The notes under the pieces were generated by a model, which was given only the letters and a program-made list of their open reading frames with translations, did not search any database and was not told where the DNA came from. Positions 23,585 through 30,388 of a DNA stretch of 39,749 bases are shown here, piece by piece; the stretch's first letter is position 1, and every line of letters begins with the position of its first letter. This DNA comes from Bacillota bacterium. GTDB lineage: Bacteria > Bacillota > Bacilli > Bu12. Both the position numbers and the translations under genes were made by a program. The stretch is from the NCBI GenBank assembly GCA_014896485.1, contig JADBKH010000002.1, positions 75,327 through 115,075 of the forward strand, in the 5' to 3' direction.

Positions 23585-24325
23585 TCACCAAGAGATAGAA
23601 AGCGGAAAATAACCACACAAATGGGTGTCATCGCATCGCTGCTGGAGTGCAACAGTATACCGACGCCCATTGTCTGTAAAGACGACGGAAGCAGTGGAAG
23701 CTCCTTCGTGGTGCGTCTCCAATTGGGGGGAGAGCACCACCACCGGTGTCCAGTACTCCGCCATTACGACGGCATCGCCATGCGGTGAGAGCCCAACAGC
23801 TATCCGCCCGTGACTTTCTCGTAGCAGCCCATCGGCCATCGCCTGCCAGGCGGCATCGGGAGATACCTGAAGTGTCCCATGATCACCGGGTCCAAAGGTC
23901 AACTGCCAGTGTGTCTCCCATTCCCCGATGGCAAAGGTAAGGGAAGCAGCCAACACTTCCCCCTCACTGTGGACAGCGTTGATGGGAGCCTGCAGCATAC
24001 GGTCTCCTTCCCATTGCAAGGTGAGGGTATTCCCCGAAAAGGAAGGTTGTTCTGGCAATCTCAACGCCAACTGCAGCAGCAAGGCAATCCGTTCCACCTG
24101 TTGCTGAGGCGTCAACCCCGTCGCACCTGGGAAGGCCTGCTGCAGCTGTAGGATCTGCTGGGCAGGTGCCCTGGCGGCAGGAGCAGGTGCCGTTGCGCCT
24201 ACTGCCGCACCCGTACGCTCTGGGGTAGAAGTGCGATGTGACGTATTTTGCCACGCCACCACACCGACCCCCCCGCCGACAGCCAGTATGCCGGCGATTG
24301 CCGCGATCAAAACACGGTTTTCCAT
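23585..24325 (-). CDS. Membrane-anchored extracytoplasmic protein of unknown function
   Basis: I do not recognise this 246-residue protein. From ATG at 24325 it has one N-terminal membrane helix (VLIAAIAGILAVGGGVGVVAW), an Ala/Pro/Thr-rich linker (about residues 30-57), then a mostly beta-strand domain with LTLQWEGDRMLQAP, TLQVSPDAAWQAMADGLLRE, GDAVVMAEYWTPVVVL and a C-terminal VFTDNGRRYTVALQQRC. Two cysteines near the end (QRCDDTHLCG) could form a disulfide. It lies 28 bases after the uracil-DNA glycosylase gene on the same strand and may be the last gene of the 30262-23585 run. Confidence 0.75.
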   Translation of the reverse strand: MENRVLIAAIAGILAVGGGVGVVAWQNTSHRTSTPERTGAAVGATAPAPAARAPAQQILQLQQAFPGATGLTPQQQVERIALLLQLALRLPEQPSFSGNTLTLQWEGDRMLQAPINAVHSEGEVLAASLTFAIGEWETHWQLTFGPGDHGTLQVSPDAAWQAMADGLLRESHGRIAVGLSPHGDAVVMAEYWTPVVVLSPQLETHHEGASTASVVFTDNGRRYTVALQQRCDDTHLCGYFPLSISW

Positions 24326-24353
24326 CCCTGCTTCTCCCTGCTGTCCCGAACCC

Positions 24354-25094
24354 TTACAACGACGAGAGCGCTTGCCGTGCAAGCAGAAAGATCTCATCCA
24401 ACATTGGTTCGGTCAGTTTCTTGGTACTCGTGTTTTGTCGACTGGGATGATAACTACACAACAGCATGGGCAATGTAGACTGAGGATAGGCAAAAAGGGA
24501 ACGATGGGCAAAACGGGGTTTGTGTCCTCCAGCTGTGCCCAAAGCAGGGGTTTCTGTCACCGGTTGTGGCCAACCCGCACCTGCTTGTCGATAGAGGCGA
24601 AGCACGTGATCGAAGGCGAGCTGCCCCAAGCAGACGATGATCCGAACCCGCTGCAAGGCAGCGATCTCTGGACGCAAAAATTTCGTCGTACAGGTGTTCA
24701 TCTCTTGCACTGTCGGACGGTTTTGTGGCGGGGCACAGTGACAGAGCGCCGTGATGTACGCATCGACGAGCTGAAGACCATCGTCTTGTGCAAGACTGGT
24801 CGGGCGATTGGCAAAGCCCGCTTTGTACAGCGCCCGAAAGAGCCAGTCTCCAGAACTGTCACCGGTAAACATCCGCCCCGTGCGGTTGCCACCATGGGCG
24901 GCAGGAGCCAGCCCCACAATCAGCAGACGCGCGTTTGGATCTCCAAAACTGGATACAGGTCGCGACCAGTACCTTTGATTGCGGTAGGCAGGCCGGGGAT
25001 GTCGGCCCACCTCTTCGCGCCATGCAACCAAACGCGGGCAAGCGCAGCAGGAGATCATTTCTTCTTGCAGCTGCTTCAGCGATCTCTCAGGCAT
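24354..25094 (-). CDS. Family 5 uracil-DNA glycosylase (UDGb)
   Basis: The enzyme removes uracil, and in this family also hypoxanthine or other deaminated bases, from DNA. The 246-residue protein has the iron-sulfur ligands Cys16, Cys19, Cys120 and Cys135. The UDGb active-site motif is GLAPAAHGGNRTGRMFTGDS (61-80), in which Ala replaces the water-activating Asp of family 1 or Asn of other families. A C-terminal HPS motif is at His216. NRTGRMFTGD and SGDWLFRALY are typical of family 5. The start overlaps the ligase gene upstream by eight bases. Family 5 enzymes are found mainly in thermophiles and high-GC bacteria, so this hints at a warm habitat. Confidence 0.93.
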   Translation of the reverse strand: MPERSLKQLQEEMISCCACPRLVAWREEVGRHPRPAYRNQRYWSRPVSSFGDPNARLLIVGLAPAAHGGNRTGRMFTGDSSGDWLFRALYKAGFANRPTSLAQDDGLQLVDAYITALCHCAPPQNRPTVQEMNTCTTKFLRPEIAALQRVRIIVCLGQLAFDHVLRLYRQAGAGWPQPVTETPALGTAGGHKPRFAHRSLFAYPQSTLPMLLCSYHPSRQNTSTKKLTEPMLDEIFLLARQALSSL

Positions 25095-27726
25095 CGTCTT
25101 TCTCCGCCCTTTTTCTCTGATGCCATCTTACCTCACCGGTGCGGTGGCTACCAGCATGGCTTGCAAAAGCGGACAATGGTTCCTTTGATCCTTCAAGTAC
25201 CGCCACGGGCAGGTATGCGGCTTCGTAGTCGGTAATGGGTTGGCCAGCACGCAGAAAAAGCCCACTAAAGCGACCATCGACCAAAAAGGTGCTGATGGTC
25301 AAGGATCGGCCATCAGGCAAGAGCGGCAACCGTGCTTTTCTCTGATAAAGGTAGGGTTCCGCTGAAAGCATCTCCTTCCCAGGAAAAGGCACCTGATCTC
25401 CCAACAGGACACCGATCCCTTCCCGCGAAAAAAAGGGTTTGGCAACCCAAGCCGCCTGTTGCTGGGACGGTGGGGGATCCAGTTGCGCCGGCAGCAGGTA
25501 GCGCAACGCCAAGAAACGTTGGGATGCCGTAAAAACCCCCCGCTGCTGCACGAGTTGCCATAACAAGGCAAGCAGCCCCTTGGACTGCAGCACGATGTTT
25601 TGAGACGGATTGTAGAGGGGCAACCTTCCTGCAGCCACTTCCGGCAACAAAGCAGCCGTCCCCCCTTCCGCAGGCCACCACTCCAATGGCCACAGCCGCG
25701 CAAGCACGTCGATCGACTGTTCCCGGAGATAGACGCGTCCCCCTTCGAGCCGCAATTCGGAAAGATCCCCCAGCAGCACCTCCGGCATTTTGTGGGCGAC
25801 GCCTTGCTTGCGTCTCAGTGCAGCTGCAACCCACTCGCTGAAGGCAAGCTGCTGGGACCAGTCTTCGCGAAAGCGCAGCGGCGCTACAAACGCCAAAACG
25901 TGCCTTGCATCTAGATACCCCAGATGACGCTGCGCCCAATGCAACAGTGAAGCAACGATACGCCGCCGCAAAAAGCGGTTGGGATCTGCTCGACGCGGAA
26001 AGCCGACTTGGCGCAACAAACGTGCATTGAGCACCGCCGACTCGACCCACCCTGCCGGTGTGTCGGCATTGACCTCCAACAGCCGAGGCAATCCATCTTC
26101 CCCCAAGCCCCAATCAAGACGCAGCACGCCGCATAACGCCGGTTCCTCACACAATGCGGCAGGATACAATGCAGGAGACAGGCCCAGCAACCCCAAAAAC
26201 GGGTCGGGGAAACGCTGCACCCAGCGCAGGGCCCCCGCCAGCAGGCCACTCACCACTTCGGTTGCCAGGGCAAAGCGTTGCACATCAAAAGAAGAAAAGC
26301 AGACCGGCCCCCCTTCAAAGTAACGGAAAGGACCGGTAAAGCCGGCCAAATAGCCCTCCTCGAAGGCCAACCGATCGTGCAGCTGCAGCCAGGAATCCGA
26401 ATCGAGCGTTGACGGCAAGTGGCGTACCTTGGGGGTAGGCATCACCCGCAACGGGCGAAACCAACTGTTCTCTTCACGGGTGAGATCGCCGTGAAAGAGT
26501 CGGACGAGGGCGCCGCTGCTGTGCAGCCGACCCTCAGTGCGCGGCAACAGGAAAAGGCCAAGATTGGCCGTCGCACGTTGCTCGTGGGGACGCTGTGCCA
26601 AACCGTACCCGTCCTCAACGAGTGGCCTGCCCTCCTCTTGCGCAATCCAAGCATTCGGGGTAGCAAAAGCGTGCGACAAAGACGTCTGCCAGACGGTAGG
26701 AGCAACCTTACACCCCCGCACCACTCCCTCTCCATAGCGACCAAAGACCGGTTTGAGCACCCAGCTGCGCTGGGCGGTCTGCAATTGCTGATAAAAGGCT
26801 TCTCCGTCCCCAAATCCGGAGCCGTCATCACGGAGATCAGCCAGGCTGCGTGTATATGGAACCAAACGTAGGGCACGCGCTGTCTCGTCATTCAGGGAGG
26901 GCAGCTGCGCTGCTCCACCTCGCCCAGCATCTCGCCACAGCAGCGCCATCCAGCTTTTGGCTTGTGCCACCCCGTATCGTGGGTCGTTGAGAATCACCAG
27001 CTGATGACGGGCATGCGCTTGCAGCAAGGCAGCCCCTTGCGGCCATTCTTGTAAAAACTCGATGGGCCACAGGCGCCAGATCACATCGATTGGCTCTCCG
27101 AAGGCGACTGCATGGCCGTGGCGCATCCACAGATTGGCAGGCGTTGCGAGGATCCCCTCAATGCCCAAGTACGAAGTCAGGCATTGAAGCCCCAATGCAG
27201 CCGTATACAACTCTTCTGTATGACCCGGATCGACGACGGCAGCCACCCGCCAGCGTCGGTGACGTGGCGTCAACCAAGCACGCACCTGCTGTTCAAACGC
27301 GATCGCCAGCTGCCGCTGCGCATGGCGTGCCGGTTGATCCCCCAACGCCGCCTGGATCAACAACTCACGCAGTCCCACCGGCTTGTCCCAGTTGATCTCA
27401 CTGAGGAAAAAACCATCCGGGTAACTGCGGAACAGATCGGCTCGTGCATAAAAAAGGGGCCAGGGCGCATCCGAAGCCTCTTGTAAGGCTGCCACAGCTT
27501 CCCATACCGGTAAAGCGGGCTGTCCCCACGGTGGAAAACGATCGGACTTTTGCAACAGAGCCACAGCAATCCGCAGACTTTGTTGTGCCGCCGCCTCGGC
27601 GTTGGCAAGCAGCGCCTGCCAAAGCGATGCTTCCATAAGATACGGGGAGGATCCGTAGAGCCGCTCGGGTGATGCAGCGGGAGGCAAAAAATACGCGAAG
27701 CGGAAGTGGGAGGTATCCGCAAACAT
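25087..27726 (-). CDS. Tandem glutathionylspermidine-synthase-like ATP-grasp protein
   Basis: The 879-residue protein seems to contain two copies of the GSPS-like ATP-grasp amidoligase module. The N-terminal copy has FLSEINWDKPVG (107-118), IDVIWRLWPIEF (213-224), NDPRYGVAQAKSWMALLW (247-264) and WVLKPVFGRYGEGVV (322-336). The C-terminal copy has LLEVNADTPAGWVESAV (549-565), IDVLARLWPLEWW (672-684), NPSQNIVLQSKGLLALLW (706-723), WVAKPFFSREGIGVLL (760-775) and ISTFLVDGRFSGLFLR (811-826). The matched order shows a duplication. Family members join an amine to a carboxylate using ATP; substrates here are unknown. The C-terminal copy keeps the Glu-x-Asn-x-Asp and Lys positions better than the first (SEINWD). 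ATG at 27726 lies nine bases after the lipoprotein stop; a longer frame would run back inside that gene. There is no amidase domain. Confidence 0.82.
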   Translation of the reverse strand: MFADTSHFRFAYFLPPAASPERLYGSSPYLMEASLWQALLANAEAAAQQSLRIAVALLQKSDRFPPWGQPALPVWEAVAALQEASDAPWPLFYARADLFRSYPDGFFLSEINWDKPVGLRELLIQAALGDQPARHAQRQLAIAFEQQVRAWLTPRHRRWRVAAVVDPGHTEELYTAALGLQCLTSYLGIEGILATPANLWMRHGHAVAFGEPIDVIWRLWPIEFLQEWPQGAALLQAHARHQLVILNDPRYGVAQAKSWMALLWRDAGRGGAAQLPSLNDETARALRLVPYTRSLADLRDDGSGFGDGEAFYQQLQTAQRSWVLKPVFGRYGEGVVRGCKVAPTVWQTSLSHAFATPNAWIAQEEGRPLVEDGYGLAQRPHEQRATANLGLFLLPRTEGRLHSSGALVRLFHGDLTREENSWFRPLRVMPTPKVRHLPSTLDSDSWLQLHDRLAFEEGYLAGFTGPFRYFEGGPVCFSSFDVQRFALATEVVSGLLAGALRWVQRFPDPFLGLLGLSPALYPAALCEEPALCGVLRLDWGLGEDGLPRLLEVNADTPAGWVESAVLNARLLRQVGFPRRADPNRFLRRRIVASLLHWAQRHLGYLDARHVLAFVAPLRFREDWSQQLAFSEWVAAALRRKQGVAHKMPEVLLGDLSELRLEGGRVYLREQSIDVLARLWPLEWWPAEGGTAALLPEVAAGRLPLYNPSQNIVLQSKGLLALLWQLVQQRGVFTASQRFLALRYLLPAQLDPPPSQQQAAWVAKPFFSREGIGVLLGDQVPFPGKEMLSAEPYLYQRKARLPLLPDGRSLTISTFLVDGRFSGLFLRAGQPITDYEAAYLPVAVLEGSKEPLSAFASHAGSHRTGEVRWHQRKRAEKDDA

Positions 27727-27734
27727 CGCCCCGC

Positions 27735-28469
27735 TCAACCGGAACTGCTTCCCGGAAAGGTACTGTAATGCCCACCAGAAGGTGATGGCGCCCGCTCCCA
27801 TCCGCCGGTGCGGGGACCGGAGGGTGGTGGAGGGGCATAAGTGCCACCGTAATATCCTGGCCCAAACCAGGGGGAGAAAGCGCGCGAAAGGAGACTTCCC
27901 ACCAAAAGCGCCTCCCACAAGCCACTGCCGTTCTGGCTTTCCACGACGACAGGCGCTCGATTGTTCGGAATAGGTTGGCTTTCGGCAGCGCTCTTGTCGA
28001 CATTGCCCACCGTAATGGTAAAGGTCGATCCTGCCGGCACCGCTCCTGTTATAGGAATGTAGATATTGCCTCCCGCCGCATCGATCTCGGGTGTACCCAC
28101 CTTGACCCCGGAGACACCGGAGACTGTGACATCTTGTGGAGTGACGTGGGCAATCTCTGCAGGCGGCAAGGTAACGTGCAGGCGGTGGACGCCGTCGGGC
28201 ACATCGCTCGGCACAGCGACCGTCAGCACCTCCGCGTCCCCCTGAGCCTGCTGGGGATTGCTTTCAAAGGAAGCAGAAGGCCCCTGGGATCCAGGTGGCG
28301 CAGCACCAGAAGTAGACGAAGAGCCTGCCCCTTCGCCGCCACAACCGGCGAGTGCGATCGTCATCGAGACAGCCAATCCCAACGCCAGCGTCTTCTCCCC
28401 AGAAGCGACAAGGCGTGTAACTTCCGACTTCCAAGGGGAGGGGTCTTGGGCAGATGGTTTTTCGGACAT
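27735..28469 (-). CDS. Lipoprotein with Ig-like middle and Gly/Pro/Ser-rich tail
   Basis: The 244-residue protein has an unusually long n-region (about 27 residues), a hydrophobic stretch and the lipobox ALAGC (Cys43). A Gly/Ser linker leads to a beta-rich domain (about 80-160: VLTVAVPSDVPDGVHRLHV, VTVSGVSGVKVGTPEIDA, GNIYIPITGAVPAG). A short helix, GLWEALLVGSLLSRAFSP, precedes a tail rich in Gly, Pro, Ser and Tyr ending GSSSG. The plan (long n-region, lipobox, a FW/LW-containing helix, disordered Gly/Ser tail) recalls YgiB/YjfM (DUF1190) lipoproteins that sit beside GSPS-like ligases in enterobacteria, but I see no clear sequence match. ATG has AGAGGAG eight bases upstream. Its tail is a conceivable substrate of the ligase encoded next. 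Confidence 0.75.
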   Translation of the reverse strand: MSEKPSAQDPSPWKSEVTRLVASGEKTLALGLAVSMTIALAGCGGEGAGSSSTSGAAPPGSQGPSASFESNPQQAQGDAEVLTVAVPSDVPDGVHRLHVTLPPAEIAHVTPQDVTVSGVSGVKVGTPEIDAAGGNIYIPITGAVPAGSTFTITVGNVDKSAAESQPIPNNRAPVVVESQNGSGLWEALLVGSLLSRAFSPWFGPGYYGGTYAPPPPSGPRTGGWERAPSPSGGHYSTFPGSSSG

Positions 28470-28553
28470 GAGGACGCTCCTCTGTACTTCCCTTTCGCAT
28501 GGATCAGAAGTAGGCCAGACATCGATCGTCTTTGAGTAGGCTTCTTGCCGGCA

Positions 28554-29339
28554 TCAGGTACCCGGCTCGTCTGCGTATCTTCCATCCCCGACAAAGTGCT
28601 GGTGCACGCTTATCCCACTTTCCTTGACCGCAGCAAGATATGCCGACAGATCTTCCAGCGGTCGCGGGGGACCCACATAACGCACCGTCTCCACCCCAAG
28701 CGCAACCAGCCACGCCGGCTGGGGCAAATCCTCTTCACCCAGTGCGTATGTGTTGGGAAAAACCCCTCGAGCGGATACCTCTTTCTTGGCGTGGTAACGG
28801 CGCCGGTCCATCACAAAGATAGGCCACCCCATCTGCCGGGAAGGCTGCGGCAGGCAGAGCAACCGTCGGCCGGCCTCTAAAAGCGCAGCGATTTCAGCGG
28901 GACGCCCAAGCTCCCCATACGGGTGCAACCAGACGTTGTAGGTCATCACCACACCGCGCCGATGCGCGCGCAGCCAAACCAGTCCATGCAACCCCACTCT
29001 CCAAGGGAGATCGAACAGAAACAGGGTCCGTTGATCGTCGGCCATTCGTTGCACGGCCTGTCGATACCCACCCATCAAGCGTCGATCATTGGCCTCCCAG
29101 CGTGCAGCCCCTGTTTGTAGTGCATCGATCAGCGCCGCAGTGGCGCTACGGAAAGCTGGGGAGTCGGTATCGGCCGACGGCCAACGCGTGAGCGAGACCA
29201 GCGGCGTCGCACGCACAAATCCTTCAAAGGGTGCACTGCCCAGACGATAGGCCTCATAAAGGCGCTGCAACAGGGTGCGGGAGAAGTGTCCGTCGCGAAC
29301 GATTGAATCAAGCCCATGTTGCGGCGCCAATGATGCCAC
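28554..29339 (-). CDS. Unrecognised alpha/beta protein in the ATP-grasp cluster
   Basis: I do not recognise this 261-residue protein. It is soluble, Arg- and Trp-rich, and appears to have alternating strands and helices: TLFLFDLPWRVGLHGLVWLR followed by GVVMTYNVWLHPYGELG, GWPIFVMDRRRYHAKKE, PAWLVALGVETVRYVG and a C-terminal LSAYLAAVKESGISVHQHF. The first strand with Asp-Leu-Pro and the later VMDRRRY strand look like active-site or binding positions of a Rossmann-like fold. The N-terminal third is helical. GTG at 29339 gives a 32-base overlap with the DUF350 gene; a later TTG is possible. Its tight placement between DUF350 and the lipoprotein suggests it is a working part of the system. Confidence 0.75.
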   Translation of the reverse strand: MASLAPQHGLDSIVRDGHFSRTLLQRLYEAYRLGSAPFEGFVRATPLVSLTRWPSADTDSPAFRSATAALIDALQTGAARWEANDRRLMGGYRQAVQRMADDQRTLFLFDLPWRVGLHGLVWLRAHRRGVVMTYNVWLHPYGELGRPAEIAALLEAGRRLLCLPQPSRQMGWPIFVMDRRRYHAKKEVSARGVFPNTYALGEEDLPQPAWLVALGVETVRYVGPPRPLEDLSAYLAAVKESGISVHQHFVGDGRYADEPGT

Positions 29340-29712
29340 CTACCAACAGCATGAGGACGAAGATCAGCGCCCCGACGGCAAGATTGCCCTTTTGCAGCTC
29401 CTCATTGATGCGAAACCGCGGGGTGACCAGATCGAAGAGAAAATAGGTAATGACCAGCAAAACAAAGCCTATTCCACCCCATAAGATCGTCTGGGTCAGT
29501 GAATCGTTGTTCATCATGGCAAACAACAAGACGAGGCCATTGCCGATCAGCTTGCCCGAAGAAGCCAGCGCCACAGCCAGGTTCCCTTTGCGAATCTCAC
29601 CGATGTCATCGTAATGGGTCAACAGGTTGAACAAGATCGTCGTCACCGCCAAGAAAGCGAGAATGACGATCCACCACAATGCGATGGTGCCCAGTGCGTG
29701 CAGTGAAAACAA
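29308..29712 (-). CDS. DUF350 family membrane protein (YjfL-like)
   Basis: The 134-residue protein has four membrane helices in two repeats. The repeated signature GEIRKGNLAVALASSGKLIG and NEELQKGNLAVGALIFVLML, in which a polar loop with KGNLAVA precedes a helix, defines DUF350. The family is a small membrane protein often found beside GSPS-like ATP-grasp genes and DUF4178; its biochemical role is not known. Start TTG at 29712 follows GGGAG by eight bases; longer frames lack a site and overlap the DUF4178 gene. It starts 25 bases after that gene ends. Confidence 0.88.
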   Translation of the reverse strand: MFSLHALGTIALWWIVILAFLAVTTILFNLLTHYDDIGEIRKGNLAVALASSGKLIGNGLVLLFAMMNNDSLTQTILWGGIGFVLLVITYFLFDLVTPRFRINEELQKGNLAVGALIFVLMLLVGGIIGAATWA

Positions 29713-29737
29713 TGGTCCAACTCCCTTTGCGCGTGGC

Positions 29738-30262
29738 CTAGGCGGATCCGGCCAAAAAATCCAACTCTGCGTTGGTAACCGGTTCCCCGATACTAACTTC
29801 GAGCACGTTTCCCCACCGCTCAATGGAGAGATATGAAGTTTGATCGGTAGCGGTATACCCCCAATACGCGACTACCTGTGGCGCAAAGAATCCGGTGTTT
29901 TCTGCGCGCTCTGGCGGACGCTCTTCACGGACCAGCGCCTCGCCCTGTTCGGTCAAGACATACGTCCGTCCTTGGAAAAGGATCTCGCGCGGCGGCGGAT
30001 CTTCGACAGCCAGAATCTGTCGGCGATAGATCGCCAATCCTCCCTCTGCCTGCGGATCTGGCCCCACCGCAAGGTAGATCGTCTGGTCGGCATCTTTGAG
30101 TTCATAAGAAAACCAGCGCACCCCAGCCTCTTCGTAGATGTACTTGTGAGCGACAATGTAGTCTCGTCCCACATACGTGACAATATCGTTCGCACGCAAA
30201 TTTTGCACCGTACGTGGCACGTAGGCACGTTCCTTCGACTGTCGACGCTCTCCGAAAGGCAC
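29738..30262 (-). CDS. DUF4178 family protein
   Basis: The 174-residue protein has the DUF4178 pattern: an N-terminal segment TVQNLRANDIVTYVGRDYIV, then YEEAGVRWFSYELKD, DQTIYLAVGPDP, a central ILFQGRTYVLTEQGEALV and a closing SYLSIERWGNVLEVSIGEPV. Such proteins are beta-rich, soluble and of unknown function, and are recurrently encoded next to DUF350 and GSPS-like or polyamine synthase genes. GTG at 30262 has GGGAGG eight bases before it. It is the first gene of the minus-strand cluster, divergent from an acyl-CoA synthetase across 186 bases. Confidence 0.85.
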   Translation of the reverse strand: MPFGERRQSKERAYVPRTVQNLRANDIVTYVGRDYIVAHKYIYEEAGVRWFSYELKDADQTIYLAVGPDPQAEGGLAIYRRQILAVEDPPPREILFQGRTYVLTEQGEALVREERPPERAENTGFFAPQVVAYWGYTATDQTSYLSIERWGNVLEVSIGEPVTNAELDFLAGSA

Positions 30263-30388
30263 GTCGGCCGCCTCCCATCGTGACAATGGCCCCATCATAC
30301 CATTGCGGCCACGTCGGAGGCCAACCAAAGAACATCTGTTTTTCAAGCCTCGCAGGTAACACCTATGCGCTGCCCATGGGAACAGTTA

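Follow-up and report, generated by a model that had tools for sequence, protein, structure and literature searches.

A fused two-module GSPS-like ligase with a conserved lipoprotein partner in Bacillota: a possible C-terminal tagging system

What does a single polypeptide with two GSPS-like ligase modules do, and on which molecule does it act? The question is raised by a locus of Bacillota bacterium (Bacilli, Bu12; assembly GCA_014896485.1, contig JADBKH010000002.1, positions 75,327 to 115,075), a stretch of 39,749 nucleotides (nt) which was analysed as a whole and is called the window here, with coordinates counted from its first letter. Five minus-strand genes lie head to tail between 30346 and 25087, coding for a DUF4178 protein, a DUF350 membrane protein, an alpha/beta protein which we call X, a lipoprotein, and a fused ATP-grasp ligase of 879 amino acids (aa) with two modules (25087..27726, ATG at 27726). 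An earlier, sequence-only reading of 25087-30262 had given the same genes and coordinates, and the open reading frames (ORFs) re-derived here agree with it. Our tentative reading is that the cassette serves to tag a protein C-terminus, with a link to the envelope and in the manner of the YgiC/YjfC peptide-spermidine ligases, and that its ligase is made of two different GSPS-fold modules.

The Pfam family PF03738 matches the 879-aa protein twice (E 1.1e-41). Module 2 (residues about 450-845, 25192..26379, minus strand) is GSPS/YgiC-like and scores 110.6 bits against a cut-off of 29.3, while module 1 (residues 1 to about 431, 26434..27726, minus strand) is weak in a single-sequence search, with 29.1 bits alone and 38.1 with its neighbour. 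Profiles gave a clearer result: that of the N-half aligns with a YgiC/YjfC/Gss set over 371 columns (probability 99.9, E 1.1e-33) with the catalytic columns in register, and that of the C-half aligns over its full length with a GSPS/YgiC/YjfC/Gss set (E 1.2e-69). The proposed assignment to the GSPS-like amidoligase systems is thereby borne out, with yjfLMC and ygiBC as relatives; both halves align full-length with YgiC/YjfC/Gss, and the N-half is GSPS-fold by profile. The two ordered sets of GSPS-like motifs that had been noted are both complete in their catalytic residues. In window numbering these are R95, D97, E110, N112, K257, K325 and R330 in module 1, kept in all 21 N-halves known to us, and R536, D538, E551, N553, K716, K763 and R768 in module 2, kept in 20-21 of the 21 homologs. 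By their roles in the known GspS structure, these residues form the Mg-ATP and carboxylate site. Because they are kept in both halves of 21 fusions, both modules are likely catalytic, and the presence of two competent modules is well supported. The halves differ in their substrate-side motif, which is [ST]-E-[FI]-N-[YW]-D-K-P in the N-halves (SEINWDKP in the window) versus E-x-N-x-[DE]-T-P in the C-halves (LLEVNADTP in the window). This replacement of NADTP by NWDKP or NYDKP, together with the poor PF03738 score of module 1 and the fact that single-module systems manage without it, would suit an enzyme in which module 1 is a noncatalytic scaffold or regulatory domain and only module 2 links an amine to a peptide, be it the tail of the lipoprotein or another one. 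In that case some of the Mg-ATP residues would be expected to be lost, whereas all seven (R, D, E, N, K, K, R) are present in 21/21 N-halves, conserved no less strictly than those of the C-halves, and we regard a noncatalytic module 1 as unlikely.

A query with the single protein found no close relatives in genome contigs. A profile built from three N-halves was then used for a wide scan of 84,980 species genomes, which returned 20 further fusion loci (two of them in G442 and G387), every one in Bacillota. The hosts include Pseudobacteroides cellulosolvens, Clostridium magnum, C. carboxidivorans, C. drakei, C. acidisoli, C. akagii and [Clostridium] fimetarium, and the fusion is found in the closed genomes of Clostridium carboxidivorans P7 and Clostridium sp. 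OS1-26. Two modules per chain are present in all 21 loci, with L090 truncated by the contig end. In 20/20 loci and in the window, X and then a small exported lipoprotein-like ORF stand directly upstream of the fusion, and among 299 genomes of the phylum the fusion occurs in 3 and X in exactly those 3 and nowhere else. The locus is not a chance arrangement, as shown by the 20 further loci with fusion and X directly upstream. On plasmids, single GSPS genes are present, X is absent and no clear two-module gene was seen; at one plasmid site an 88% figure was made up of two pieces at 26% across a 1.1-kb stretch, which is not a clear fusion.

The other neighbours are less constant. DUF350 is complete in 8 of the 20 related loci, half-length in 3 and not found in 9 (one of these on a short contig), and DUF4178 had no match in any of the 20 with a model built from the window's single sequence. 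Since DUF4178 is seen in the window only and roughly every second related locus lacks DUF350, the conserved core consists of X, the lipoprotein and the fusion, with DUF350 frequent but dispensable and DUF4178 outside. The earlier inclusion of both DUF proteins in the system is thus retained in part, for DUF350 in some loci, and dropped for DUF4178, the constant partners being X and the lipoprotein. The idea of a distinct subtype stands, marked by the fusion and by the conserved X. In three Clostridium-type loci, a 69-aa half DUF350 (one of two repeats) lies 3' of the fusion (L096:8890-9099, L097:7432-7641, L101:10450-10659). Two small membrane-anchored families also recur 3' of the ligase. Upstream of X in Clostridium, in L087 and L092-L102 (e.g. 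L094:6739-6924, L102:6565-6999), there is a small repeat protein without Pfam family, of 61-74 aa with one copy and 127-151 aa with two, whose core is GY-x-[HQY]-I-[IL].

How the tandem arose was addressed with a maximum-likelihood tree of 61 domains, including 14 sampled fusion N-halves, the window's among them; one member on a branch of 4.18 (L025) was disregarded as a probable wrong ORF. The 14 N-halves form a single clade with support 100/99 and are placed with a family of single-domain proteins, while the C-halves are placed with ordinary GSPS ligases. Forcing N- and C-halves into a single clade is disfavoured (approximately unbiased (AU) test, p 0.03). Internal or recent duplication is rejected by the separate N-half clade and, weakly, by the AU test. 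The protein is instead a fusion whose halves come from two ligase families that diverged deeply, and the single-chain duplication put forward by the sequence-only reading is replaced by this origin. In the free tree the C-half of the window falls outside the remaining fusion C-halves; all C-halves as one clade are allowed (p 0.14), so that the fusion may have arisen only once. A tandem without special function, resulting from recent duplication or from a fusion artefact in one metagenome-assembled genome, could be suspected from the same-class genomes, where a GSPS ligase occurs in 123 of 300 and the window genome is the sole carrier of the fused form. The 21 loci, including closed genomes, the ancient N-half clade and the co-conserved X refute an artefact, and we consider this explanation extremely improbable.

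The gene directly upstream of the ligase codes for the lipoprotein (244 aa, 27735..28469, minus strand), which has a LAGC lipobox (C43), a GYYGG stretch and the tail GGHYSTFPGSSSG. The tails of 20 such proteins (19 loci and the window), aligned from the right end, share the pattern GYSxx[KH]GGSxx[SG]. The last residue is Ser in 14/20 and Gly in 6/20; further in, position -5 is Gly in 15/20, position -4 is Ser in 14/20 and position -11 is Tyr in 13/20. When residues were shuffled inside the last 60 positions of 17 less redundant proteins, such a Tyr column arose in 0/20,000 cases, in a test which overstates independence. A recognisable lipobox-like Cys is present in 17/20; L083 seems to have a standard signal peptide instead, and two proteins (L084, L100) are ambiguous. 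Similar Gly-rich tails are carried by the small lipoproteins preceding single-module Bacilli ligases, and YjfM and YgiB of E. coli end in Gly-Gly. Because a constant free C-terminus here adjoins a carboxylate-amine ligase, the Ser/Gly tail of the lipoprotein is a plausible candidate target of the enzyme. An insertion that looks beta-rich, placed between lipobox and tail, makes the window lipoprotein about double the length of its counterparts. In Clostridium magnum DSM 2767 (L093:7606-8001) the lipoprotein gene is apparently frameshifted past the lipobox, with a tail that is out of frame compared with L092.

An indication of what module 1 might join comes from its nearest single-domain relatives (about 440 aa, motif FCELNADGSSGMNE), which are encoded directly 3' of a GCS2 (glutamate-cysteine ligase family 2) gene in 12/12 Bacillota loci, the GCS2 neighbours being confirmed by Pfam in 4 and by similarity in the remainder. 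These relatives look like candidate non-canonical glutathione synthetases, enzymes that attach an amino acid at the carboxylate of a peptide. A glyoxalase-sized gene is near in 4 of these loci (L106-L117, e.g. L106:2881-5492 and L116:4123-6744), and the one in L109, which was checked, matches PF00903. GCS2 was not found in any of 11 fusion-bearing genomes, in which GCS1/GshF-type enzymes and uptake were not examined. Since GCS2 is missing there, the fused module 1 probably works on a peptide other than gamma-glutamylcysteine from that enzyme, and a glutathione route is made unlikely within the same limits. GspS and trypanothione synthetase belong to the same superfamily and act on glutathione and spermidine. 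Together with the pairing of module 1 kin with GCS2, this membership would fit an enzyme that makes a small-molecule conjugate, with two ligations on one polyamine or small peptide and a product that the lipoprotein and DUF350 would use or sense. Such an enzyme would lack the usual GCS2 route to its precursor in the 11 fusion-bearing genomes, and the constant Ser/Gly ending of the exported protein encoded next to it would be left unexplained; we find it rather unlikely.

X (28554..29339, minus strand) starts at either GTG 29339 or TTG 29330 and ranges from 208 to 261 aa across homologs. No family in Pfam or NCBIfam matches it over threshold. An AlphaFold model from 21 sequences has an alpha/beta fold (predicted local distance difference test (pLDDT) 93.7, predicted template modelling score (pTM) 0.91), and a comparison of this model with PDB and with the viral structures of BFVD gave no match at E <= 0.001, the best template modelling (TM) score being about 0.3. 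Its conserved residues include R-Y, N-N-Q-Y, D-x-P and K-E-D, and no hydrolase triad is visible. An assignment to the ATP-grasp R2K domain was rejected, as only 2/21 members match, with E 0.009. On the basis of the model, X would be a new protein family with a confidently predicted fold and one known context, the fused ligase.

Taken as a tagging system, the cassette would work as follows. Both modules would be active carboxylate-amine ligases acting in turn, with module 1 extending a C-terminal carboxylate, probably by an amino acid as suggested by its GCS2-paired single-domain kin, and the YgiC/YjfC-like module 2 then capping the extended end with an amine, for instance spermidine. As acceptor, the Ser/Gly end of the lipoprotein is the most likely one, and it would be modified while the protein is still in the cytoplasm. 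X would probably aid the reaction by presenting the substrate or supplying the amine, DUF350, where present, would act in the membrane, and a spermidine synthase would supply module 2. A strong spermidine synthase is found in 8/11 fusion-bearing genomes. The order of amino acid then amine is a guess by analogy, and in all its particulars (an amino acid, then a polyamine or other amine, added to the tail of a dedicated lipoprotein by a bifunctional ligase assisted by X) we judge the scheme to be fairly unlikely. Several observations weigh against the tagging reading. The ligase has no export signal and the tail of the lipoprotein ends outside, which means that the modification must precede export. 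The tails are of low complexity and come from related organisms, and 2-3 of the 11 genomes are without a strong spermidine synthase, so that the amine may differ. The substrate of module 1 is only guessed from distant kin, and the structure prediction of the fusion, made from a 3-sequence alignment, was unusable (pLDDT 38.9).

Where does this leave the cassette among known systems? In E. coli, YgiC and YjfC are annotated in RefSeq as peptide-spermidine ligases, their genes directly follow those of DUF1190 lipoproteins, and yjfC is also clustered with the DUF350 gene yjfL; a passage of PMC12568646 cites Pederick et al. 2023 for the activity. As in yjfIJKLMC and ygiBC, the ligase of the window directly follows a lipoprotein-like gene with a Gly-rich tail and has the same catalytic residues, and as in yjfIJKLMC a DUF350 gene is found beside it. 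The E. coli clusters differ in having one module per chain (386-387 aa), a DUF1190 lipoprotein and no X, and their partners PspA (YjfJ), DUF2170 and DUF2491 set them apart from the window operon. DUF1190 has matches in YjfM and YgiB and none in the window lipoprotein, a different small lipoprotein thus occupying this position in the window. Single GSPS-DUF350 operons of Bacilli (18 loci) likewise have DUF350 and, immediately ahead of the GSPS ligase, a small lipoprotein whose tail is rich in Gly, but this ligase is single (400-540 aa) and an unrelated protein of about 150 aa sits in the place of X. The phage-shock protein (PSP)-associated operons described in passages of PMC11237479 combine DUF350, a lipoprotein, DUF4178 and a seven-transmembrane (7TM) spermidine-synthase-like protein, and share with the window the first three and a polyamine theme; those passages mention no fused ligase or X, and the PspA and CesT/Tir-like partners which they describe are not in the window operon. 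E. coli Gss (glutathionylspermidine synthetase/amidase) shares the catalytic residues in its ATP-grasp synthetase domain, while its second domain is an amidase instead of a ligase and its substrate is glutathione. Of the circularly permuted ATP-grasp families PF14403 and PF04174, the first (CP_ATPgrasp_2) is matched by the N-half of one homolog (P0006) with 39.1 bits (cut-off 32). The N-half of the window stays below it at 22.1 bits and aligns full-length with the GSPS set, and the operon is without alpha-E or transglutaminase-type partners. The system is kin to the YgiC/YjfC peptide-spermidine ligase clusters and would work like them; it departs from them by its two modules, its non-DUF1190 lipoprotein and the added X. 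A full-text literature search, in which the YgiC/YjfC papers and the 2009 amidoligase survey were only partly covered, found no description of the fusion.

The remaining features of the window operon concern its layout. Its first gene, DUF4178 (29738..30346, minus strand; PF13785, E 1.1e-21), has an uncertain start between 30262 and 30346. It is followed after 25 nt by DUF350 (29308..29712, minus strand; YjfL-like, PF03994, E 1.9e-32), whose ORF opens at 29823. The start is probably TTG 29712, preceded by AAAGGGAG, which yields about 134 aa and matches the length of the homologs in related loci (130-135 aa). DUF350 and X overlap, and 84 nt separate X from the lipoprotein gene and 8 nt the latter from the ligase. 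An alternative GTG start at 27918 would give a longer ligase ORF running into the lipoprotein gene. Downstream, the start of a uracil-DNA glycosylase superfamily gene (24354..25094, minus strand; PF03167, E 6.2e-28) overlaps the ligase stop by 8 nt. This gene is probably co-transcribed with the operon; it does not recur beside other fusions and is outside the system. A membrane-anchored protein of 247-270 aa without Pfam match is encoded 3' of it (23585-24397). Promoter and terminator scans gave nothing clearly exceeding shuffled sequence.

YgiC/YjfC-type ligases are active in vitro, and we know of no accepted cellular substrate for them. The doubled ligase described here is coupled to a single small protein whose C-terminus hardly varies, which makes tagging directly and cheaply testable. 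If the tagging reading is true, bacterial envelope biology would gain a modification of protein C-termini, and the widespread clusters of DUF350, lipoprotein and GSPS ligase would be explained.

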